Shown: positions 182 to 15,001 of the stretch, one piece after another
Position numbering within the stretch: the stretch's first letter is position 1
Layout: each line of letters opens with the position of its first letter
Origin: a virus
Virus record (IMG/VR): IMGVR_UViG_3300027733_000256
Coordinates: 1 to 20,237 of that record
Reading direction: 5' to 3' (one strand)
Length of the DNA: 20,237 bases
Position numbers and translations under genes: made by a program
Notes under the pieces: generated by a model
The model's input: the letters and a program-made list of their open reading frames with translations, nothing else
What the model was told of the DNA's origin: nothing
The model's database searches: none

Positions 182-940
182 ATGGATAACGAATTATATA
201 AAGCAGGTACCGAAAACTTTAACTTACCACATGACGTGGTTCAATTACCATCTGGAGGTACTTTTTACAAAAGTAAGAAAAAATCAATTAAAGTTGGTTA
301 TTTGACCGCTGTTGATGAAAATTTATTAAGTGGTTCTAATATTGAAAGAGACGGATTAATGATGACTCTTTTAAGAAATAAGGTTTATGAACATGATTTG
401 AGACCTGAAGAATTGTTAGACGTTGATATTCAATCAGTATTGTTATTTTTAAGAAATACTTCTTTTGGACCTGAGTATAGTATGTCTGTTTTAGACCCAA
501 GAACTAATAAGTATTTTGATGCTACAATTGTGTTGGACGAACTTAATATTACAAGACCATTACATGAGCCAAATGAGGTTGGGGTGTTTGAAACAAAATT
601 ACCAAAGACACAAGCGGTAGTTAAATTAAAACCATTATCATATGGTGAGGATACAGAAATTGAAAAATCGTTAGAGAAATATCCCGCAGGTTTGGTCCCA
701 CCTAGTGTAACAATGAAATTACAAAAACAAATTGTGGAGGTTAATGGAGATTCTTCAATCTCAACTATCTCTAAATTTGTTAATGAACTACCTATATTAG
801 ATTCAAAATACATTAAAAATTTCCTTAAAGAAAATGTCCCTTCATTGGACCTAAAAAGACAAGTTAAGACCCCATCAGGAGAAATAGTTACAGTTCAGGT
901 AACGTTTGGGGTTGAGTTTTTTCGTCCGTTCTTCCAATAG
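182..940 (+). CDS. T4 gp26/gp51-family baseplate protein; probable tail assembly chaperone G
   Basis: This 252-aa protein resembles the T4 base-plate family that includes gp26 and gp51. It has an LPS-G-x-FY motif near residues 22-29, then the family's 'KVGYLTAVDENLL' stretch, the 'LLRNKVY' segment, and a second half with 'VKLKPLSYGEDTEIE'. In T4 these proteins help assemble the central baseplate hub and do not form the bulk of the tail. The gene sits directly before a tape-measure-like gene, where the tail chaperone G/GT pair lies in many tailed phages. The 3' end (917-940) holds TTT TTT CGT CCG, a likely +1 slip site joining it to the downstream frame at 903-1079. Arg uses AGA in seven of eight cases; the eighth, CGT, is at this site. 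The assignment rests on recognised motifs and gene order, with no database search. Confidence 0.7.
   Translation: MDNELYKAGTENFNLPHDVVQLPSGGTFYKSKKKSIKVGYLTAVDENLLSGSNIERDGLMMTLLRNKVYEHDLRPEELLDVDIQSVLLFLRNTSFGPEYSMSVLDPRTNKYFDATIVLDELNITRPLHEPNEVGVFETKLPKTQAVVKLKPLSYGEDTEIEKSLEKYPAGLVPPSVTMKLQKQIVEVNGDSSISTISKFVNELPILDSKYIKNFLKENVPSLDLKRQVKTPSGEIVTVQVTFGVEFFRPFFQ
917..923 (+). promoter_or_regulatory. Candidate +1 (or -2) ribosomal frameshift site TTT-TTT-C
   Basis: In the upstream gene's frame the codons here are TTT, TTT, CGT, CCG, with the stop TAG at 938. A Phe tRNA sitting on TTT (920-922) can slip +1 to TTC (921-923), a perfect match, and continue in the frame that is open from 903 to TAA at 1077. 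The next zero-frame codon, CGT, and the CCG after it are the only CGT and CCG codons in the gene, so a slow A-site would favour slipping. The predicted fusion is about 298 aa. This is inference from sequence only. Confidence 0.45.
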
Positions 941-971
941 TCGGGAATATATTTTAAACTCATACTATTTG

Positions 972-1079
972 ATGGGAAAATTTCTGAATACTTCTTATTC
1001 AGATTTTATGTCTATGCCTGTTTTTGAACGAGAATATTTGTGTAATAAGATAATTGAGATTAACTCCCCAAAAACATAA
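972..1079 (+). CDS. Short 'T'-type tail chaperone extension (35 aa from its own ATG, or frameshift fusion)
   Basis: From ATG at 972 the frame gives 35 aa ending at TAA 1077-1079. The frame is open leftward to 903, overlapping the end of the upstream gene. The peptide reads Tyr-Ser-Asp-Phe-Met-Ser-Met-Pro-Val-Phe-Glu-Arg-Glu-Tyr-Leu, close to the 'MP-x-x-ER' helical motif I associate with the C-terminal extensions of frameshifted tail assembly chaperones. It lies between the gp26/51-like gene and the tape-measure-like gene. I favour expression as the C-terminal part of a frameshifted product. The alternative is an independent small gene, but the ATG has no usual leader and lacks the TATTTATTAA box of its neighbours. 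Confidence 0.5.
   Translation: MGKFLNTSYSDFMSMPVFEREYLCNKIIEINSPKT
984..1002 (+). other. RNA hairpin inside the chaperone extension
   Basis: CTGAATA (984-990) and TATTCAG (996-1002) form a 7-base-pair stem with a 5-base loop. It lies about 60 bases after the candidate slip site, farther than most frameshift stimulators. It is followed by ATTTTAT, too short a T-run for a confident terminator. Its role is unclear. Confidence 0.3.
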
Positions 1080-2986: not shown

Positions 2987-5900
2987 ATGTCAGATAGTTC
3001 ATTATCATTTGCTTCAACCTCGACGTTTAGAAACAACCTTTTAGGTAGAAATCTTGCTCCGTATACAGTACAGGGTGTTTTTACACCCCCAATAAGTAAC
3101 GTTGCATATGAAACAGTTTTAACTGTTACAAATGTAATAGATTCTCCTGATAACTTGATTGATGATGATGTCTTTGCTAACCAACTTTATCCATTAAACG
3201 AATATGGACCTGATGGTGGGTATAACACAACAATTACTTTTAATGGACCTCCATTACCTGTAGCGTCTAATAATGGTGAATATAGTCCTAATGATACTGT
3301 ATTAGATATTATAAATGAGGCGACGATAAATGCTCAATTTATTGAAAATAGATTTGGGCCAACGGGAGGATTTGAAGATTTATATTTTGTTGATAATATA
3401 CAGTTAAACGGTATTACAAATAATCCTTATTGGCAACCACCAAGTTTTTTACCATCATTTTATAGTCCGTATGAGATTTTAACAAATGATAATCCAAACG
3501 GTTCTAACGGTTTATTATCACAAGATTCATTCATCGCAAGAATTGGTGCTCAAAGATTACAATTTGCGTTTCAACAAAGAGTTGCTGCTGAAATTTTTCA
3601 AAACACTGTTGGACAAGTTAATTTAGCGTCATTACAAGACCCTTTTCAGGTTAGTTTAATTGTTACAGGTCAACAACCACTAATTTATAAGAATTGGAGA
3701 ATTACAGTTCCTGAGAACCCAATATTAAGAATTGTTGATTTGGCAACAAGATTGTCATCTGCTTATTGGCCTGTTTCACCCATACCTGGTGATTATTTTG
3801 AGATGGGGGGTGTTCCTCAAAATCAACAAACTTCATCAGCCCTAAATGTTGCCAATCAGTTAACAGGTGGATTTTTAGGGCCTGTGTTGAATATTACAAG
3901 AAGTTCTTCTGAAACATTTTTGGCTAACACAGGAAACGGACAAAGGTCGGCATTATTTGCAAATATTGATTACAATAGATATCAACCACCATACGATAAA
4001 AATTATGGAGGTATTTTGGGTGTTATTTCAGGTGTTGCCGATTTAATAACTAATTTAATAAATCCTGATAACGGAACACTTATTGGTGGTTATTATGTTG
4101 GTAGTAGAAACGCTGAACCTTCATCAATTACTTCACCACCAAACCAAGTACCTGTTAACATTTTTGGAGAACAAGTTCAAGCTCCTGTTTATGGACCGTC
4201 TGAATTAGGTATTTTATATGAAGGTAACCAAGAAGTTTTAAACTTTGGTTTGGCTTCTAAAACATACGATAATGGTGGTGGTATTGGTGGACAATTTGTA
4301 TGGGTTTCACCAAAATATAAAGATAATGCTGGTTATAGACCAACAGTAGGTGGTGGTGTGGGTGGTATTGATGAAAATTACAATGAAGTTAGTAGTGATT
4401 ATACTCGTAATGAGTCAACAAATATAACATTTAAGGGTAATTCTATTTTAGATAATACCCAAAGATTAATTGATTCGGCAGATAATGTTCAAGGTGTTTC
4501 AAGATTAAAACATGTCGGTAACGCTATAAATCAAGTCAGTAAAGTTTTCAATGACGGATACAAAGAAATGACTAAAGGTTCTAAAGTTGTATCTTATATT
4601 GATAACACAACAGGACAGGAAGCGGGCACTGAGTATTGTAGAGTATTTGCTAAAGATACTCCATATCTTATGTACAATGATTTACAAAAAACTGACGGTA
4701 TTACTACTTCAGGAAGAAGAAGTACATTTTCTGTATTAGATAATACTTTTAATTTAAACATTGCTCCGACAAAAAATCCTGGTTCAACAAACATTATTCA
4801 AGGTGGTGATGGTAGTGGGGGACATGTTAAAAAATACATGTTATCAATTGAAAATTTGGCATGGAAAACATCAAGTAGACCTGGTTTTACTTATGATGAC
4901 TTACCTGTTTGTGAAAGAGGACCAAATGGTGGTAGAATAATGTGGTTTCCACCATACAATTTAAAATTTAATGATACTTCAAATGCTACATGGAACCCAA
5001 CATCTTTTTTGGGTAGACCTGAGCCGATTTATACATATAAGGAGACTTCAAGAACAGGTGTTGTTTCATTTATGATAATTGTTGATAATCCTTCAGTTAC
5101 AAATCTTATAGTTGAACAACAACTTAGTGGAAAAGATAAAGGTAGAATTGATTCTGTATTAAATTCTTTCTTTGCGGGATGTGCTAAATTTGACATTTAT
5201 GAATTAGCTAAAAAATTCAATACGTTGAAGCCAAGTGATTTGATGACTTATCAAGAAATCATTAATAATCCAAGATTAACAAATGAAGAACTTGGTCAAA
5301 TTATTAAAGAGGTTCCTGTTGAAAACACAACAGCTGGAGGACAAGGAACGGGTACTGCCGCCAATGCTGATACGGTAAATGGTAGCGGACAAAATAATAC
5401 ACCCGACCTTATAGGTCCTTTTGAAAATCAGTTTTTGGGATTTGCGTTTTATTTTGATAACGATATTCCAGGACCAAGTAATAAAGAAACTACAGATGTT
5501 AATTATTATTCAACTTATACCGAATATACTAAATCAAGTAATATTGAAACATATGTTAGTAACTCTCACAATATTTTTGAGTCAACAAATATAAATTATA
5601 ACGTCCAAGAATTTTTTGATAATGTTATTAAAAATAACTTTGAAACAATTACTGAAGGGGAAAATTCATTTATTCAAAGAGCATATAAATTATTAAATGA
5701 TAATATTGCAAAATCTATCTCAATTGTAATGGAGGGTTCTGCTTCAGCAACTGCGACACCTGAATACAATAAAAAATTATCATTAAGAAGAATTGATTCA
5801 ATTAAAAAATACCTTTCAACCGATATTAATGGGGTTAGTTTAGCTAAATTTATTGAAGAAAAAAGGTTTGACATAAAAAGTGAGACAGGTTTTGGTGAAG

Positions 5901-8053
5901 AAATAGTTATACCTATGTATAGTATTGAGGTTGGAGCTAATAACCAAGAGTTTGGACGTAATGATTCGGGAACAGGATTAGATGTTGATTGTAAACAAGA
6001 TATTAAAGACAAAAGTGGTAATGTTACAGCTCAATCACAAGTTTACGCTGCAAATGCAATGGCTTGTAGAAGGGTTAAAATAAAAAATATTTCAGTTGAA
6101 CCAATGCCTGTGGAGACCGCAAACACTGACCCTGTAATAAATACTGTTGTTGATGAAACCCCAGTTGGTGCAACAACAACCGAAACTATTAAAGTTCCTT
6201 TAAGACCACCAGTACCGGCTCCAACTAAAACTATACAACAAAAATTAAAAGATAGTATTGGTAAACGAGTACTTAGAAATTTATTGACAGAATGTAATTA
6301 TTTTGAAGTTATTAAAGAAAATGTACCATTTTTATATGATTCATTTAAAGAAAGAATAAAGTATTTTAATCCTGCTTTCCACTCAATGACACCTGAAGGT
6401 CTTAACTCAAGATTAACATTTCTTAATCAATGTATGAGACCTGGTGAAACAATACCTGTGATTGGTACTGATGGAAAACCAAGAATTAATGATGCGGTTA
6501 ATACTTCTTTTGGGGCACCTCCTGTGTTGGTATTGAGAATTGGTGATTTTTATAATTGTAGAATAATACCTGATAGTGTGTCGTTTACATACGATTCCAC
6601 ACTTTTGGATTTAAATCCTGAAGGTATTGGAGTACAACCTATGTTGGTAAATGTTAGTATGAATTTTAAAATGATTGGTGGTCATGGTATTGCAAATCCT
6701 GTGGAACAATTACAAAATGCTCTTTCGTTTAACTATTATGCTAATACTGAAATTTACGATGAAAGGTCAGTTTGGACTGAAGATACTACGGCACTTGATA
6801 AACAAATCGCAGATGCGTTAGGTTTGGAACCTGAAGTGACCACACCAGTTAATAATGTGGAACCACAACCAACAAATGATGGGGGGTCTACAATAGGTGA
6901 AATAATAACAAATAAACCTGTTGAAGGTGGTAGTGAAGGTGAAATTAGTTATTTAAAAATAATGGATTCTATCTTAACAAATTCAAAAACATATTTCACG
7001 ACAGTTGTAAATAAACTTGAAGAGATTAATACTAAATACAACTATGGTATAGTCCAATTAGTTAACCAAGATAGAAATTTTAAAATTGGTCCATTAAATA
7101 CTACACAATCTCAAGATTGTAACATATATGGGTCACCATTTAATATTGAAGAGAAATTAAAACAACTATTCAATCAAGTTTATTCAGATATTGATAGTGG
7201 CTCAAACCCAATAATTGCTGAGTTGAGTAACTTAAATTTTTCACCTGACACTACAATTAAAATTGTTAAGAACAATATGAAAGTTTACATTTCAACAAAT
7301 GTAAACCAAACTATGGCAAGTGATATTACGAATGTCTTAACTGATATTTTAAGTTTTGAACAAACTTTTATTCAAAACATAAGAAAAGTTAATTTAGTTG
7401 TTAAACAACATGACGGTAAAAAAGACTCAACTAATTTACCTTTAATTTATACATTAACACCAACAACTGAAGTGAGTCAAACTAGTACAGGTGTTGGTGA
7501 CACATTAGTTGAATTGGATAAGGATTTAATTGCTTTTGGTGGACAAATGAAAAATTTCAACACATATTTAGAAAGAGAACAAATTATAACTAATTCTTAT
7601 GATAGTGTTGGTAAAATTCAAACTTTTAAGATAGTTTCCTCTAATATTATAAATAACTGTTTCTTTATGGTTATGGGTAGAATTCTTTCACAAGATTCAA
7701 AGAAAGATGAATTTATAGACGCTTGTTTAATAAATGTTTCAGAGGTTGATGAACCTTACAGTTTGGAAAATAAATTAAAAAAAATAGTTAATGATTTAGC
7801 GAAGGACTACTCAAAAGAAATAGAAAAAGACGAAGAATTTTTCCAAAATTTTAAAAAACAAAATGATTACAAAAACTATGTTGATGGTGTTGAAGAGTTG
7901 ATGTATAAATCAGGAAAAACAAGAAAATTCACATTTTCAACAGTTACACCGGCAGATGATGCAGTAAAAGAACAATTCCAACAATTATATACTACTGATG
8001 AAAATTTTGGTACTGTTGATACATATTTAGGAAAGGTTAAATTAACAAGTTAA
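2987..8053 (+). CDS. Giant tail/baseplate protein: two tube-initiator-like modules plus an OmpA-like domain
   Basis: This 1688-aa virion protein has three recognisable parts. Residues about 616-700 form one tail-tube-initiator-like module, with 'FLGRPEPIYTYKETSRTG' leading into a beta strand. Residues about 900-975 look like an OmpA C-terminal domain: a beta strand, Gly917 at the GHTD position, Asn928, Leu931-Ser932 and Arg935 of the 'N-x-x-LS-x-x-R' helix, then 'GFGEE' at the end. The Asp of GHTD, which contacts peptidoglycan in OmpA, is Ser920. Residues about 1180-1262 form a second tube-like module beginning 'RIGDFYNCRIIPDSV'. T4 uses two proteins of tube fold, gp48 and gp54, to start the tube, so this gene may combine both jobs; that is inference. 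The N-terminal 600 residues and C-terminal 400 are unrecognised; the latter include Lys/Glu-rich helices. The gene lies two bases before the gp53-like gene, suggesting translational coupling. Confidence 0.6.
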   Translation: MSDSSLSFASTSTFRNNLLGRNLAPYTVQGVFTPPISNVAYETVLTVTNVIDSPDNLIDDDVFANQLYPLNEYGPDGGYNTTITFNGPPLPVASNNGEYSPNDTVLDIINEATINAQFIENRFGPTGGFEDLYFVDNIQLNGITNNPYWQPPSFLPSFYSPYEILTNDNPNGSNGLLSQDSFIARIGAQRLQFAFQQRVAAEIFQNTVGQVNLASLQDPFQVSLIVTGQQPLIYKNWRITVPENPILRIVDLATRLSSAYWPVSPIPGDYFEMGGVPQNQQTSSALNVANQLTGGFLGPVLNITRSSSETFLANTGNGQRSALFANIDYNRYQPPYDKNYGGILGVISGVADLITNLINPDNGTLIGGYYVGSRNAEPSSITSPPNQVPVNIFGEQVQAPVYGPSELGILYEGNQEVLNFGLASKTYDNGGGIGGQFVWVSPKYKDNAGYRPTVGGGVGGIDENYNEVSSDYTRNESTNITFKGNSILDNTQRLIDSADNVQGVSRLKHVGNAINQVSKVFNDGYKEMTKGSKVVSYIDNTTGQEAGTEYCRVFAKDTPYLMYNDLQKTDGITTSGRRSTFSVLDNTFNLNIAPTKNPGSTNIIQGGDGSGGHVKKYMLSIENLAWKTSSRPGFTYDDLPVCERGPNGGRIMWFPPYNLKFNDTSNATWNPTSFLGRPEPIYTYKETSRTGVVSFMIIVDNPSVTNLIVEQQLSGKDKGRIDSVLNSFFAGCAKFDIYELAKKFNTLKPSDLMTYQEIINNPRLTNEELGQIIKEVPVENTTAGGQGTGTAANADTVNGSGQNNTPDLIGPFENQFLGFAFYFDNDIPGPSNKETTDVNYYSTYTEYTKSSNIETYVSNSHNIFESTNINYNVQEFFDNVIKNNFETITEGENSFIQRAYKLLNDNIAKSISIVMEGSASATATPEYNKKLSLRRIDSIKKYLSTDINGVSLAKFIEEKRFDIKSETGFGEEIVIPMYSIEVGANNQEFGRNDSGTGLDVDCKQDIKDKSGNVTAQSQVYAANAMACRRVKIKNISVEPMPVETANTDPVINTVVDETPVGATTTETIKVPLRPPVPAPTKTIQQKLKDSIGKRVLRNLLTECNYFEVIKENVPFLYDSFKERIKYFNPAFHSMTPEGLNSRLTFLNQCMRPGETIPVIGTDGKPRINDAVNTSFGAPPVLVLRIGDFYNCRIIPDSVSFTYDSTLLDLNPEGIGVQPMLVNVSMNFKMIGGHGIANPVEQLQNALSFNYYANTEIYDERSVWTEDTTALDKQIADALGLEPEVTTPVNNVEPQPTNDGGSTIGEIITNKPVEGGSEGEISYLKIMDSILTNSKTYFTTVVNKLEEINTKYNYGIVQLVNQDRNFKIGPLNTTQSQDCNIYGSPFNIEEKLKQLFNQVYSDIDSGSNPIIAELSNLNFSPDTTIKIVKNNMKVYISTNVNQTMASDITNVLTDILSFEQTFIQNIRKVNLVVKQHDGKKDSTNLPLIYTLTPTTEVSQTSTGVGDTLVELDKDLIAFGGQMKNFNTYLEREQIITNSYDSVGKIQTFKIVSSNIINNCFFMVMGRILSQDSKKDEFIDACLINVSEVDEPYSLENKLKKIVNDLAKDYSKEIEKDEEFFQNFKKQNDYKNYVDGVEELMYKSGKTRKFTFSTVTPADDAVKEQFQQLYTTDENFGTVDTYLGKVKLTS

Positions 8054-8055
8054 TT

Positions 8056-8382
8056 ATGGCGAACAAACAATTTTATAATAGATATAACAATTTCGACATA
8101 AATGGTAATCAAACTGTGGTTCCGTATATTACGTTACCTTCAAAAACAACTGATAAAAGATTCATTTATAAAATAAACCAAACAAGGTTAGATAAAATTT
8201 CACAACAATATTATAACTCACCTTTTTTTGGATGGTTAATTATGGTTGCAAATCCTGTTTATGGAGGACAAGAATGGAATATTGCTGACGGTTCAATATT
8301 GACTATTCCATATCCTTTGGTAACTTCTTTACAGGACTATAAAACGGCTTTAGACAACCACTTCTTCTATTATGGTAGATAA
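8056..8382 (+). CDS. LysM-like baseplate wedge protein (gp53-like)
   Basis: This 108-aa protein contains the pattern of a short LysM or tail-protein-X domain. Residues about 39-50 hold 'RLDKISQQYYN', then 'PFFGWLIMVANPV' with the Trp-Leu-Ile core, then 'DGSILTIPYP' near residues 77-86. T4 gp53, a baseplate wedge component next to the hub gene, carries a similar fold, though it is longer (about 196 aa). The gene starts two bases after the giant tail gene and its last 11 bases overlap the hub gene, so the three are probably translated together. It likely anchors in the wedge around the hub. A generic LysM tail protein is the main alternative. Confidence 0.65.
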   Translation: MANKQFYNRYNNFDINGNQTVVPYITLPSKTTDKRFIYKINQTRLDKISQQYYNSPFFGWLIMVANPVYGGQEWNIADGSILTIPYPLVTSLQDYKTALDNHFFYYGR

Positions 8383-11300
8383 TTCAGAAAGTATTTTAGT
8401 AGATTACGATTACAATAATATTATTGTTGTTGACCCAAATAAAGTGGTTGATACAAACGGTAATGTTAAAGAAAGATACGTTAAACAAGAAAATTTAGTA
8501 ATTTACGCTAACTTGGAATGCAATGTTTTACCAAGAACTAAATTGGCTGTTGGTTCATCTAATACAACTGATATTAAGACGGTTAGTATTGCGAGTATTA
8601 ATTTTTTAAAACCTGGTAATAAAGAGTTTATGGACATTGGTTACACTGATGAACTAACAGGTTTAAAAAAGGTAAATAAAAATGGTACTGAACAAAATAA
8701 CTCTAACAACTTACAACAAAGTGATAAAAATGATGATTATTATTTTAATCAGTCATCTAATTTAAATGGTAATGAAAGGGTTTCCGATAACGGGTTATTA
8801 GGGATTATTTCAATTAATATTAGACAAAACACATCATTTATGTCAACAATTACTGTTGAGTTAGAAGATGTTAGAGGGAAGGCGTTGTTTGAAGGTGGAA
8901 ATAGTTCACCATACGCTGCGTTTTTTAATTTACCATATCCATTGTTCAATTTAACAATTAAAGGATGGTATGGTAAAGCATTAAAATTACCATTAATGTT
9001 ACAAAACTTTACCTCAAGATATGATGGTAATAGTGGAAATTTTAAAATTACTTTAACTTTTTACACTTATAAATTTACTGTACTGAGTGAAATTTCTATG
9101 GGGGCAATACAAGCTACTCCCCATATGTATAAGTCAAATGTGAAAATACAAAAACTTAGTGGAGGTCCTAACTCAACAACACCAGTACAAGATGTTGTTT
9201 ATGAACAAGGTTATCAAAAAATCAAAGAATTATATAGTGAATATAAAACTAAAGGATTAATACCTGATGATTTTCCTGAAATTACAGTTGTACAACTTAA
9301 AAATAGAGTTGAAAACTTTATTAAAAATGTTTTAGATTCTTTCATAAAACAAAATTTGAATCCATTAAAAAACATTCAAGATTATGAAAATGAAATGATA
9401 ACCTATAAGAATAAAGTTTATTTTGGGAAATCAGTTATTGAACCAGGTTGGTTTGAAAAATACATGGACAAAGACAATTATTATGTTTTAAAAAATGGAG
9501 GTGTTAAAATTTATACGTTCAAAAAATTTTATGACACTTTAGAAAAACAAACAAATGCTAATAATAAATTAAAACAAATAATTGATGATGGTAATAAGTC
9601 ATTAAATTCAAATACAACACTTGGTGAAAATGGAACTTATACTATTAATAATGGTAATCCAAAATCTTCAGCAATTAGTTGTGATATTAATATTACTAAT
9701 TTTCAAAAAATTATTCAAGATGGAGACATTGATTTAAATGAGACATTTATTGTAAGAAATGGTGGAGGAGTGGCAACCGCAGAGCAACTTAGTGACTTAG
9801 AAAAACAACTTAAAACGACTTTAAACTCAGTAGGTTCAATCAATTTGTCAAATGGTGAAACAAACCCAAAGATACCTTTTTATTATTTTGAAGGTACTGG
9901 TAGTTTTATAGATAAAACTAACCAAATTTTAAAAACAGTTAAAATAAAAAAAGAAGAAATACAAACATCATTAACTGATGCTTTGTCTGAGAAACTACAA
10001 AGTAAAAATACAGGAATTGGATTTGTCCCAACAATAAGAAATGTTTTAGCCGTTATTTTTGCAAATGGTGAGGCATTCTTAAGATTAATGGAAGATGTTC
10101 ATTCTAAAGCTTGGGATTTAAGAGATGAGAAAGTAAGAAAAAGTGCTATTTTGGGAACCAAACCATCAAGTGATAATTTAAATCCTGGTGAAAATGGTAC
10201 TACCCCAATATACCCATGGCCACAATATATTGTTGAGACAACAGGTGAGAATGGTAGGGGTAAATATGAAATTAGATATCCTGGCGAATCTGAAGTTATT
10301 GACCAAACAAAAGGTTTTGAATTTCAGTATTGGCCTGAAGTTGAATTTTTAGAAGAATTTGTAAGAGCGTTTACTGAAACTACACAATCTAAAAATCAAA
10401 CACCACAAGATTTTTCTAATGAAGAAACTGACATTAAAAGAATTAGTTTTAACGCTATTGAATTTCCTGTGTCAAATGTTGTTTTTTCTAACAGAGAAGA
10501 AATAAAATTTTTCTATGAAATATTTGAAAGATTATTTTTTGTCACAAATTACTCAAGATTAAGTAGAGTAAATTTTGATACCGAGTTTTCGGATAAAATT
10601 ACATCATTACTTGCTGACGGAGAAAAAAATAATTTATTAGTTAGTTTATCTGATGATAATCCGTTTTTAATTCAAAAGTTACAAAATTATGGAATAAACT
10701 CTTCTAATTTTGTTTCAATTTTAAGACATTTTTCTAATGATGGTGAAGGACAATCGTGGCAAAATTATATAAGAGGTATTTTTAACACTTCTTATATTAA
10801 AAATTTATCTCAAAATTCAAACTTTGAATTTTTAAATAAAGCAATATTAGATGATTCGTCATCTAGTCCATTAATATCTTTAACTAATGAAATTGATTTA
10901 ATTGAGTTAGTTGGAAATTCTACTAAATCAAATGTGTTTGATTTTTTAGATATATACCCATTTACAAATTTAGATTGGGTAAAAAACAACTTGGCGTATG
11001 GAACATCAATACTAACAGTGGAAAGTAGTTTTGATACTCAAAAAATACTTACATTTAATACTGATAAAAAAATAATATCTAATTTTTCGGGTAATAATAG
11101 CTCACTTCAGAAAAGACCAATTACGAATTTTTTGTGGGGTACAAATCCAACACAACCACTAATAAGTAATACGACTAATTTATCTTCTTTTTATAATTCA
11201 AGAGTACCTGAAAATCAGTTAATTACTGAAGGGAATGTTTATTATAAAAATTACAGTGGATTTGTTACGAGTACTCAAACGACATCAATGTTTAATACAC

Positions 11301-14300
11301 CATTCTTTGTTAATTCAATACAAGAGGGTGTTAGTAATTTTAGAAATAATGACCCATATCCATACAAGGCCGCGGCTTTTTTGTTTTTGAATAGTTTACC
11401 TTTGGCGACATTAAGGGAAAAATATAAAACATATGAAAACGGAACAACAACCGATTTAGATTATATATTTGCAACAATTAAAAAATTTGGAGCTATACAT
11501 AAAGTACCTTATGCTTGGATATTAAAAATTGGTTCAATTTGGAGTAGATATAAAACTTATGTTGAAACAGGTACTGACTTTTTGAATACTTCTTGGAGTG
11601 ATTTTAATTATATATCAAACTATGACCCAATAACCAATTCACCTACAAAACAATATAGTTTAGTTGTTAATGGTGGTGCGATTGATATTATTTTAGAAAA
11701 AAATACTGTAATTGGAACAGATACTAGTTCATTAATTCATTCGGGATTTTACCCTAAATTAATTAATGATTTTAATGTCTTTTATCAAGGATTTCAAATA
11801 TATTCAACATATACTAATTCAGATATACAAAATGGATTTGCTTCAGGTGTTACTCTTAACTATGTTGATGGGGCAATTATAGATTACGCTGATGGTTTTG
11901 ATGAGAATAACCTTAATAGAAGTTTAAGAATAATTCCTTGGTCTGTTACAGTTAAATCATTAGATGATAAGTTTAATTATGTTATACCATCTCAAGGTTC
12001 ACCTATAAATCAAGTTAAATTTGAATGTTTTAGTAATGGACAAATAAAACAAGAAGTTTTAGGTAATCAATCAATGTATAATGGTTCAATTAGAACCTAT
12101 TGGTCATCACCTCAGTATGGTTATTTTGATATTTCTAAAATAACAAAACCAACACCTGAACAGTATTTAAAAAACATATTACTAACATCAAAAAATCAGG
12201 AAAACTTCTCAATTAATGGTGAAAATGGTGACTACGATAATATAAGTGAAATTTTTTCAGTATTTGAAAAAGATGTTCTTGATAGATTTGAAAATGAATT
12301 TTTAAATTTCTCAAGGTCGGTATACGATTATAAATCTAATATTGTTTCTGATGATGAAACAAATACTGAGTATTCTATGAAGAATTTTCAATTTTTCATG
12401 ATTGAAATGATGAAAGTACCATATAGTGGTGGTACAAACGGTACTCAAACAGTCGGAAACACTTCAAACGGTCAATTTATTCAAATAAATAAATTTTTGA
12501 TAGATTTTTTGCAATATGATGTGATATTCAAATATGGTAATCCGTCTAATTTTGATAAAAGATTGTTTTACACTTTTTCTAATTTACCAATAATAGAACC
12601 GTATATATGGGATTCTTATAGGGTATCAACACCAAACGCTTTACCTGTTAATGGGATTTCTGTTTCTTTATCACAATCCCAAACAAATTATCCTGATGCT
12701 TGGAAAGCTCTAAAGACATACGTTGGTTTTTCCAATATACCGGATTTAGTTTATGGTAATAATGGTTCATATATAACAGATTTCTTTATTGATTTAGATG
12801 TGGCTTTTAATCCATCAAATATTAAGAATTTTGCACCGATTATTAAAATTTATGCAACTCAAAAATTAAATCAATTTCAATTAAACACGATACCACCACC
12901 TGAACCACCTGTTTCGGTACCAAGTCAAATTGTTTCAGTAACAAAACTGTTTAGTGGTGACACAATTACAGTAAAACTAAAAAATAATGATAATATTGCA
13001 ACAATTAAAAATAATAATTCAGCGGTACTATATGAAAGTTTACCTGTAAGTTTAGCCCCAACAACAGCGGCAACACAGTCGTTTATAAATCAATCAATTA
13101 TTCAGTTTTACGGTTCCTTAGCAACTAACCCAACAGACCAACAATTTATAGTTCAGACAGTTTTTACTCCACAATACGAATACCCTCAGATACCAAATCC
13201 GTTGAGTAAAGAAGGTACTAAGTCATTTACTGAAAGTATGACTAACTATCTATTAGACTCCACGTCTTTTCAAGATAAAATTACAAATAATTTATTCACA
13301 AGATTAAGATTAGATTTACCTAAAGTTACAATTAGCAATTATAGGACACTAAATTCAAAATTAGATGGTGATTTAACTAAAAGAGATTTGTGGGAGTCTT
13401 TTAAGGCTACAAATGATAAATGGATTTCGGGTAATGATTTTAAAAATAAAACGTTATTTGAAGATGTTCTTTTTTTAGATAGAGCTTCACGAGATATTGG
13501 TAATAAAGTTATTATTGACATATACAAGTTAAAAGAAAGATTAACTAACATCAATCCTAAAACTAACATGTTAACATATGTTCAATCAATTATACAAGAA
13601 AACCACTTTGTTGTCATGAATGTACCATCATATATGAATTTTTATAATGTTCAAGATGCAACTAAAAATCCTGTACCAAAAATGGAAGGTGTTGGAGATT
13701 TTGCTAATAGCCTTTTTGGTACATTTATGAATGTTGATTATAGGAATTCATCTTCAAAGTTAGTATGTTTTTATGGTGGTAAACCAAGTGAACACTTGGC
13801 GGTAAATAATGTTGATTATAAATTTAAAGATGATGGTTTTGATTTGAAAAAAGATAATCCGTTAATTGAAAATCAAGTAGATAAAAAAGACTGGGATAAA
13901 TCAAATAAAGTTGTTGGTTTTAATATTGATATAGGTACTCAAAACCAACAAATTTTTCATGGATTTTCGGTTTCACAAGACGCTGGACTATCTACCGCAG
14001 AGAGTATTCAAATCCTTAATGATATGACCGCTCAATCGGGTAATAGACAGGCGGCAACACAAAACATAAGTTTATATAATTTATATAAAACTAGAAGTTA
14101 CAAGTGTACAGTTAATATGATGGGTAATGCTATGATACAACCAACGATGTACTTTAATTTAAGATATGTTCCTATGTTTAGTGGTCCTTATATGATTTTA
14201 TCAGTTGACCATACAATATCACAAGGTAGTTTTGAAACAGTTTTGACGGGTATAAGACAAACAATTTATTCATTACCGCAATTAGATGATTATTTACAAA

Positions 14301-15001
14301 CATTGAAAGTTAATTTATTACAATCTATTGTTGAAACAACACTGACTCAAGAAAGACAAAACGCCGCAACAGCTACGACTCAAACTTCAGGTAATGTACT
14401 TAATGAAACGGCTCAAATTGGGTCAACAATTACTGAACAATATGCGAATCAAATCTCATCAGGGATAAGTGAGAAATGTAAACCAAATGAAAAATATTCA
14501 TCATATACACCAATTGGTGAACCTAAAAACACTAAATTAAATTATTTGGAAGTATATGAAAAAATTATTCCATTAACTTCAAATCAAACTTTACAATATT
14601 TAATTTTTTCAACGTTTTATATTGCATCAGGTAAAAATTATGGTTTTGATACCTATGAAAATAATTTTGCAGGTATTACTATTAACCAATATTGGGGAAA
14701 TACTGGAGACGCTTATTTTAGCCCTGATAGGAAATTTTATTGTTCAGTTAACGATGTTCCCTACGCTAAATTCTCAACTATTGAAAAATCTATTGAGTTT
14801 TTAATTGCTAAATGGTCAGGAAGAATTGGAACATTGACGGTTACTGATGAAAATTTGGCGAAGTTTTGGGTAATTAATGCTAATGCTAGTGAAGCGAGAA
14901 AAGAAAATGTTTGGACTAGTTTATCTCAGGAGAATAAAGGTATAGTAATTAATGATTTTAAAGAAGCTATTCAGTATTTCAAAGCAATAGAATTACAATA
15001 A
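8372..15001 (+). CDS. Giant baseplate hub protein (gp27-like) with C-terminal glucosaminidase-like domain
   Basis: This 2209-aa protein is far longer than T4 gp27 (about 390 aa). Residues about 144-252 carry a pattern I associate with hub proteins of this phage type: 'DVRGKALFE', 'FFNLPYPLFNLTIKGWYGK', then 'RYDGNSGNF'. Residues about 1848-1965 resemble the hub beta-barrel seen in gp27 and gpD: 'KTRSYKCTVNMMGNAMIQP', 'PMFSGPYMILSVDHTISQG' and a final Arg-containing strand. The roughly 1600 residues between are unrecognised; a Pro-rich hinge 'PPPEPPVSVP' sits near 1507. Residues about 2037-2207 look like a peptidoglycan glucosaminidase: Asn2097-Asn2098-Phe-Ala-Gly-Ile matches the NN-x-x-GI motif, followed by 'AKFSTIEKSIEFLIAKW'. 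The aligned catalytic Glu appears to be Ala2085 (I-A-S-G), so activity is doubtful. The hub would sit at the baseplate centre and touch the cell wall on infection. The start overlaps the gp53-like gene by 11 bases. Confidence 0.65.
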   Translation: MVDNSESILVDYDYNNIIVVDPNKVVDTNGNVKERYVKQENLVIYANLECNVLPRTKLAVGSSNTTDIKTVSIASINFLKPGNKEFMDIGYTDELTGLKKVNKNGTEQNNSNNLQQSDKNDDYYFNQSSNLNGNERVSDNGLLGIISINIRQNTSFMSTITVELEDVRGKALFEGGNSSPYAAFFNLPYPLFNLTIKGWYGKALKLPLMLQNFTSRYDGNSGNFKITLTFYTYKFTVLSEISMGAIQATPHMYKSNVKIQKLSGGPNSTTPVQDVVYEQGYQKIKELYSEYKTKGLIPDDFPEITVVQLKNRVENFIKNVLDSFIKQNLNPLKNIQDYENEMITYKNKVYFGKSVIEPGWFEKYMDKDNYYVLKNGGVKIYTFKKFYDTLEKQTNANNKLKQIIDDGNKSLNSNTTLGENGTYTINNGNPKSSAISCDINITNFQKIIQDGDIDLNETFIVRNGGGVATAEQLSDLEKQLKTTLNSVGSINLSNGETNPKIPFYYFEGTGSFIDKTNQILKTVKIKKEEIQTSLTDALSEKLQSKNTGIGFVPTIRNVLAVIFANGEAFLRLMEDVHSKAWDLRDEKVRKSAILGTKPSSDNLNPGENGTTPIYPWPQYIVETTGENGRGKYEIRYPGESEVIDQTKGFEFQYWPEVEFLEEFVRAFTETTQSKNQTPQDFSNEETDIKRISFNAIEFPVSNVVFSNREEIKFFYEIFERLFFVTNYSRLSRVNFDTEFSDKITSLLADGEKNNLLVSLSDDNPFLIQKLQNYGINSSNFVSILRHFSNDGEGQSWQNYIRGIFNTSYIKNLSQNSNFEFLNKAILDDSSSSPLISLTNEIDLIELVGNSTKSNVFDFLDIYPFTNLDWVKNNLAYGTSILTVESSFDTQKILTFNTDKKIISNFSGNNSSLQKRPITNFLWGTNPTQPLISNTTNLSSFYNSRVPENQLITEGNVYYKNYSGFVTSTQTTSMFNTPFFVNSIQEGVSNFRNNDPYPYKAAAFLFLNSLPLATLREKYKTYENGTTTDLDYIFATIKKFGAIHKVPYAWILKIGSIWSRYKTYVETGTDFLNTSWSDFNYISNYDPITNSPTKQYSLVVNGGAIDIILEKNTVIGTDTSSLIHSGFYPKLINDFNVFYQGFQIYSTYTNSDIQNGFASGVTLNYVDGAIIDYADGFDENNLNRSLRIIPWSVTVKSLDDKFNYVIPSQGSPINQVKFECFSNGQIKQEVLGNQSMYNGSIRTYWSSPQYGYFDISKITKPTPEQYLKNILLTSKNQENFSINGENGDYDNISEIFSVFEKDVLDRFENEFLNFSRSVYDYKSNIVSDDETNTEYSMKNFQFFMIEMMKVPYSGGTNGTQTVGNTSNGQFIQINKFLIDFLQYDVIFKYGNPSNFDKRLFYTFSNLPIIEPYIWDSYRVSTPNALPVNGISVSLSQSQTNYPDAWKALKTYVGFSNIPDLVYGNNGSYITDFFIDLDVAFNPSNIKNFAPIIKIYATQKLNQFQLNTIPPPEPPVSVPSQIVSVTKLFSGDTITVKLKNNDNIATIKNNNSAVLYESLPVSLAPTTAATQSFINQSIIQFYGSLATNPTDQQFIVQTVFTPQYEYPQIPNPLSKEGTKSFTESMTNYLLDSTSFQDKITNNLFTRLRLDLPKVTISNYRTLNSKLDGDLTKRDLWESFKATNDKWISGNDFKNKTLFEDVLFLDRASRDIGNKVIIDIYKLKERLTNINPKTNMLTYVQSIIQENHFVVMNVPSYMNFYNVQDATKNPVPKMEGVGDFANSLFGTFMNVDYRNSSSKLVCFYGGKPSEHLAVNNVDYKFKDDGFDLKKDNPLIENQVDKKDWDKSNKVVGFNIDIGTQNQQIFHGFSVSQDAGLSTAESIQILNDMTAQSGNRQAATQNISLYNLYKTRSYKCTVNMMGNAMIQPTMYFNLRYVPMFSGPYMILSVDHTISQGSFETVLTGIRQTIYSLPQLDDYLQTLKVNLLQSIVETTLTQERQNAATATTQTSGNVLNETAQIGSTITEQYANQISSGISEKCKPNEKYSSYTPIGEPKNTKLNYLEVYEKIIPLTSNQTLQYLIFSTFYIASGKNYGFDTYENNFAGITINQYWGNTGDAYFSPDRKFYCSVNDVPYAKFSTIEKSIEFLIAKWSGRIGTLTVTDENLAKFWVINANASEARKENVWTSLSQENKGIVINDFKEAIQYFKAIELQ

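Follow-up and report, generated by a model that had tools for sequence, protein, structure and literature searches.

A gene of the T4 gp26/gp51 family in an AT-rich virus record is predicted to direct the synthesis of two proteins by means of a +1 variant of the known G/GT tail-chaperone frameshift. We regard it as very probable that a programmed frameshift takes place here. The conserved architecture, the coding extension, the conservation of the slip site and the homologies are direct observations, while slippage and its rate are inferred in the absence of protein or ribosome-profiling data. An earlier note, made on this DNA from its letters alone, had proposed a frameshift joining a gp26/51-like protein to a chaperone extension, and the analysis supports it in substance.

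Organisation of the overlap and its conservation

The window, i.e. the whole stretch of DNA analysed, is 20,237 bases long and contains T4-like genes (gp32, RecA/UvsX-like and 5'-3' exonuclease). Since Flavobacterium phage immuto is the nearest phage for its RecA-like protein and no convincing Shine-Dalgarno (SD) sequence precedes any of the window's 12 gene starts, a Bacteroidota host is likely, though not shown; the leaders are AT-rich and Bacteroidota-like. The zero-frame gene (182-940, + strand) encodes the 252-aa "G" part. The +1 frame is open from 903 to 1079 (stop at 1077-1079) and overlaps the last codons of this gene, which read GGG (908), GTT (911), GAG (914), TTT (917), TTT (920), CGT (923), CCG (926), TTC (929), TTC (932), CAA (935) and TAG (938). 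Within the overlap, the slip site TTT_TTT_CGT (917-925, + strand) is abutted on the 5' side of its first TTT by the SD-like sequence GGGGTTGAG (908-916, + strand). The +1-frame extension, or "T" part (924-1079, + strand), comprises 51 aa plus a stop and is homologous to the C-terminus of T4 gp51; the predicted fused product, 182-922 followed by 924-1076, has 298 aa. Both the open +1 frame with its TTT-TTT-CGT and the rarity of the two codons that follow the Phe codons had been noticed before and hold: CGT and CCG each occur once in the gene, which otherwise uses AGA for Arg (7 codons) and CCT, CCC or CCA for Pro (5, 1 and 9 codons). The -1 frame is closed at most 17 nt after the zero-frame stop. 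A canonical -1 site of the form X_XXY_YYZ was considered and rejected, as the extension is not in the -1 frame.

A tape-measure-like gene (1108-2943, + strand) starts 28 nt after the extension, as anticipated in the earlier note. Its identity depends on a single profile match of moderate strength, to the annotated tape measure gene of immuto (hhalign prob 75, E 2.6e-5, single comparison). In 81 of 85 relatives the next long ORF lies 11-48 nt downstream of the extension. The layout required of a G/GT system is present, with the last part of the G gene overlapped by an extension ORF in a different frame and the tape measure gene coming next. Elsewhere in the window, a small C2H2-like zinc finger protein, below Pfam cut-offs, is encoded just upstream of the chaperone gene (27-137); a 1688-aa baseplate-region protein (2987-8053) has a weak OmpA-type domain at residues 887-952 and no clear PHROG match; and a 2209-aa protein without Pfam match (8372-15001) is encoded by a gene whose first 11 nt are shared with the end of the baseplate-wedge-like gene at 8056-8382.

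The openness of the +1 frame in a single sequence is weak evidence, and comparison places it far beyond chance. The earlier note had suggested aligning related phages across the overlap; two IMG/VR scans yielded 108 distinct overlaps, from which 85 dereplicated loci were used for codon counts. The consensus of the overlap, TTY GGG GTN GAN TTT TTT CGN CCT TTC TTY stop, showed few changes. TTT_CGN was in frame in 108/108 distinct relatives and TTT_TTT_CGN in 106/108, and the +1 extension was present in 107/108; in one relative (L092) it is cut by the contig end. The criterion for the UUU_CGN class of +1 sites, an in-frame UUU_CGN at the 5' end of the +1 ORF, is thereby met. A search with the DNA motif only gave 119 matches, all in the same context; 115 of them have the complete extension, and in the other 4 a contig end truncates it. 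The extension is also in the +1 frame in 60/60 distinct loci of the Flavobacterium immuto clade, as well as in a Microcystis phage, RM378, SP-15, GXN1, a 484-kb phage and two MAG loci. The exception among the 108 relatives is a locus (L008) with an intact slip site from which the whole extension is deleted, both flanking genes being left and the tape measure having a different N-terminus; this deletion is either an assembly artefact or a natural variant.

The slip site is conserved beyond the needs of the protein. At the A-site codon of the 85 dereplicated loci, CGG was found 39 times, CGT 26, CGC 16 and CGA 4, i.e. CGN in 85/85, compared to 91 of 783 Arg codons upstream (11.6%), of which only 2 were CGG. 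The second frame explains part of this excess: there, Phe requires the C, and the remaining bases determine G/V/A/D. It gives no explanation for the GGG found at 82/85 sites, against 10% of Gly codons elsewhere in these genes, because the second frame is not translated upstream of the site.

The extension as part of a predicted frameshifted product

As judged from codon statistics of the relatives, the extension is coding and under protein-level constraint: codon-position entropy amounts to 0.96/0.74/1.39, and its own frame has a pN/pS of 0.59 versus about 1 for the other two. Its conserved peptide (GLSS) starts right at the slip site, ahead of any start codon. Two relatives (L044 and L138) have no ATG, GTG or TTG across the whole extension and, because of this, an ordinary start of its own is impossible there; nine representatives have no ATG. 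In five others (L028, L106, L124, L125, L157) a +1-frame TAG (GTA_GAN) lies directly 5' of TTT_TTT, so that the junction between the frames must fall between GAN and the zero-frame stop, a few codons on. Over this interval TTT_CGN alone is invariant. The same TAG, located right after GGG_G, excludes a slip at that position, where GGG could re-pair exactly on GGG. The criterion of an extension without its own start is thus met by the two start-free relatives and by the five in which the +1 frame is shut just upstream. Combined, a constrained extension that is start-free in two relatives and closed 5' of the site in five leaves frameshifting as the only simple route to its translation.

Given frameshifting, the direction is +1 with a probability slightly above that of frameshifting itself, on comparative grounds only, because relatives (L130, L145, L084, L082, L166 and the TTT_CTT clade) break the T run but keep UUU_C. 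The slip most likely occurs on 920-923 (UUU_C) with CGT in the A site. This choice of P codon is inferred from L130 and L145, which read TTC_TTT_CGC: a +1 move from UUU to UUC pairs there, and a -2 or first-codon slip does not. These two relatives and the distant clades agree with the re-pairing of tRNA-Phe put forward in the earlier note, for which there are no peptide data. For the window itself, slipping by +1 from the first TTT (917-919) onto UUU would lead to an identical product. Among distant members, the site is TTC_TTT_CGT in GXN1, AAC_TTT_CTA in the 484-kb phage, TTT_CTT, TTT_CTA or TTT_TTT, mostly before TGG, in the immuto clade, and TTT_TTT_TGG in the Microcystis phage, RM378 and one Flavobacteriales MAG. 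CGN is therefore not universal: SP-15 carries TTT_TTT_CAC (UUU_CAC), and LIS04 carries TTT_TTT_AGT (UUU_UUU_AGU), which requires a slip on the first TTT, or -2. The common rule across members, as far as their sites tell, is UUU followed by a pyrimidine. Predicted +1 junction peptides are GVSFFGLTPEYR in immuto and EFFTPDSTTK in SP-15.

The earlier note had left open a +1 or a -2 event. A -2 frameshift on the six-T run, as in phage Mu, would result in a product with one extra Phe (GVEFFF|VRSS), and TTT_TTT in the window and in 106/108 near relatives indeed permits exact -2 re-pairing in the P site. However, such a mechanism needs this re-pairing in all members, and it fails in the two TTC_TTT_CGC relatives, in L084 (TTC_TTT_CGT), in L082 (AAC_TTT_CTA) and in the TTT_CTT and TTT_CTA loci, which keep the extension and cannot re-pair. 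We consider the -2 event very improbable, and only the +1 part of the proposal is retained. Slightly below it stands the possibility that a start within the extension (e.g. ATG 972 or 1014) is used, by reinitiation or coupling, to translate it as a gene in its own right. The extension in the window does contain ATG codons, 73% of relatives have a start-type codon at its residue index 30, and such an ORF is annotated as a gene in cyanophages; the start-free relatives, the nine representatives without ATG and the conserved peptide preceding any start speak against it, and the constraint on TTT_CGN and GGG would be left unexplained. Transcriptional slippage at the T run, altering the number of U residues in part of the mRNA, might be suspected because the run has six T (seven in some members of the immuto clade) and lies in AT-rich sequence, but the run is just TTT in the TTC_TTT_CGC and TTT_CTT members, where the extension is kept, and we give this explanation very little weight. 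That a one-base indel or assembly error split a once continuous gene, as the continuous frame of T4 gp51 could suggest, is next to impossible, given that the phase is identical across more than 160 distinct loci of many different samples and that the extension is under purifying selection.

The gp26/gp51 family and its other arrangements

The assignment of gene 182-940 to the gp26/51 family, proposed in the earlier note, is borne out by a match to PF12322 at 28.8 bits (Pfam gathering cut-off 24.5) and to phrog_150 (E 3e-10). With the fused product, the phrog_150 match rose from 40.9 to 44.6 bits and reached profile position 271 of 282. An AF2 model of G gave a pLDDT of only 32 from the single sequence and of 87.6 from an alignment; the alignment-based model, used for structural comparison, matched predicted gp26-like baseplate hub proteins across phages. 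In a PDB fold search with this model no match was significant by E-value, the neighbour with the highest probability being the HK97 tail assembly chaperone 2ob9 (prob 0.47, E 1.1), and PDB sequence searches with the G and T profiles gave no matches. For T4, both gp26 and gp51 have been listed among the chaperones of hub assembly, and the particle contains no gp51 (PMC3004832). A G/GT role is most likely for the product of gene 182-940, its chaperone function being an inference.

T4 gp26/gp51, KVP40 and the cyanophages share with the window PF12322/phrog_150, the same extension and the same Phe codon pair at the junction, and differ in arrangement. Among annotated phages, KVP40, marine cyanophages, pf16, Aeromonas 65, Yut3 and others have the extension in the -1 frame, where it mostly follows U_UUU_UUC or U_UUU_UUU; cyanophage-type contigs have it in -1 in 77/77 distinct cases. 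The extension of the window is homologous to these -1-frame extensions and to the T4 gp51 C-terminus (hhalign E 2.3e-6, single comparison). The MPVFERE motif, which the earlier note took as typical of frameshifted tail chaperones, is present; it is not a general motif of such proteins, its counterpart being the C-terminal end of T4 gp51 and of the short "gp51" ORFs found in KVP40 and cyanophages. Among KVP40-like phages and cyanophages (L172, L173, L255-L264) the -1 frame of this ORF is open as far back as the U_UUU_UUC in gp26, and several annotators have named it "baseplate hub assembly catalyst" (gp51), as a separate gene. This ORF may be a frameshift extension and not a gene of its own; ATG codons lie close to its 5' end, which leaves translation from an independent start possible in this clade.

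In T4, the two are separate genes. T4 gp51 aligns to phrog_150 at positions 13-280 of 282, i.e. G plus T in one frame, KVP40 gp26 at 4-232 and the short ORF of Bellamy at 244-281; thus gp51 appears to be an in-frame fused form (G and T domain) and gp26 to be G only. In a tree of 49 G proteins, +1 members as a single clade were not rejected (p-AU 0.385) and two direction changes suffice, although long branches make its details unsure. We lean towards the view, without great assurance, that the gp26/gp51 family is a G/GT system whose recoding direction switched inside one family. One clade, which takes in phages of Flavobacterium, Bacillus, Listeria, Streptococcus, Rhodothermus and Microcystis, would use +1 at UUU_C/U; KVP40-like phages and marine cyanophages would use -1 at U_UUU_UUC; and T4 would have the system split into two in-frame genes. 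On this view, anti-SD pairing would assist the UUU_CGN site of the near clade, in hosts where initiation makes little use of SDs.

Proposed mechanism and comparison with known systems

Most ribosomes would terminate at 938-940 and release the 252-aa gp26-like chaperone (G), while a minority would pause at UUU_CGU (920-925), probably through slow decoding of CGN. Base pairing between the 16S anti-SD and GGGGUUGAG, which lies immediately upstream, may add to the pause; tRNA-Phe would then re-pair from UUU to UUC by a +1 slip, giving the fused G-T. Lambda gpG/gpGT suggests, by analogy, roles for both proteins: G would attach to the tape measure protein, and the G-T molecules, few in number, would connect it to the assembly of the tail tube or the baseplate hub.

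The SD-like sequence GGGGTNGA is near-invariant 5' of the slip site, with a mean anti-SD duplex of -8.25 kcal/mol compared to -0.77 for the rest of the genes (85 representatives), calculated with a 16S 3' tail which we take to be the general bacterial/Bacteroidota one. Counted from GGGGTN, its spacing is 3 nt to the first TTT and 6 nt to the second, the likely P codon. The element is strong only in the near clade and weaker in the immuto clade (-5.2), and none was seen in the Gram-positive members; its anti-SD role is inferred and may apply. A second SD-like stretch, TCAGGAGAA (875-886; mean -6.2 kcal/mol), lies about 33 nt before the slip codon over conserved Ser-Gly-Glu codons and may merely reflect these residues. 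For RNA structure downstream and upstream of the site, respectively, z-scores against mononucleotide shuffles were weak (-0.7 and -1.35) and make no case for a stimulatory hairpin. In Flavobacterium, the SD-containing prfB frameshift is retained though initiation hardly uses SDs (PMC8710568).

G/GT frameshifting has been reviewed as conserved in long-tailed phages "except T4" (PMC5009743). The frameshift arrangement of its relatives and the resemblance of gp51 to the fused form suggest that T4 may be no true exception, and they give the long-standing "hub assembly catalyst" a testable function. No earlier report of frameshifting in the gp26/gp51 family was found in open-access papers, subscription journals being largely outside the scope of the search. 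The family offers many natural variants of one recoding site, which go in different directions, as well as a bacterial setting in which a UUU_CGN +1 site is amenable to dissection.

Like lambda G/GT and its counterparts in HK97, P2 and Mu (PMC5009743), the system described here has a short overlapping C-terminal extension in another frame near the end of a gene directly upstream of the tape measure gene, with a fused product that would be in the minority. In contrast, these systems use -1 (-2 in Mu) and not +1, lambda relies on a tandem slip whereas a single-tRNA UUU_C slip is predicted here, and lambda G has no sequence relation to the window protein. A tail chaperone gene of a myovirus, that of the haloarchaeal HSTV-2, is very likely frameshifted in +1, as predicted here (cited in PMC5009743). 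The P- and A-site codons are those of influenza A PA-X, where UUU_CGU +1 slippage was proven by mass spectrometry (PMC3498833), and of plant amalgavirus UUU_CGN sites (PMC3498833, PMC5052127), with the same proposed single tRNA-Phe slip to UUC and all four CGN codons among members; these eukaryotic RNA viruses lack an SD-like element, and the E-site codon is UCC in PA-X and TTT/TTC here. The bacterial prfB site (AGGGGG-UAU-CUU_UGA; PMC12421855, PMC8710568) resembles the predicted one in that an SD-like sequence precedes the pyrimidine tetranucleotide on which the +1 slip takes place, but has UGA instead of a CGN sense codon in the A site, a Leu instead of a Phe tRNA, and an SD spacing of 3 nt, where the distances here are 6 nt from the second TTT and 3 nt from the first.
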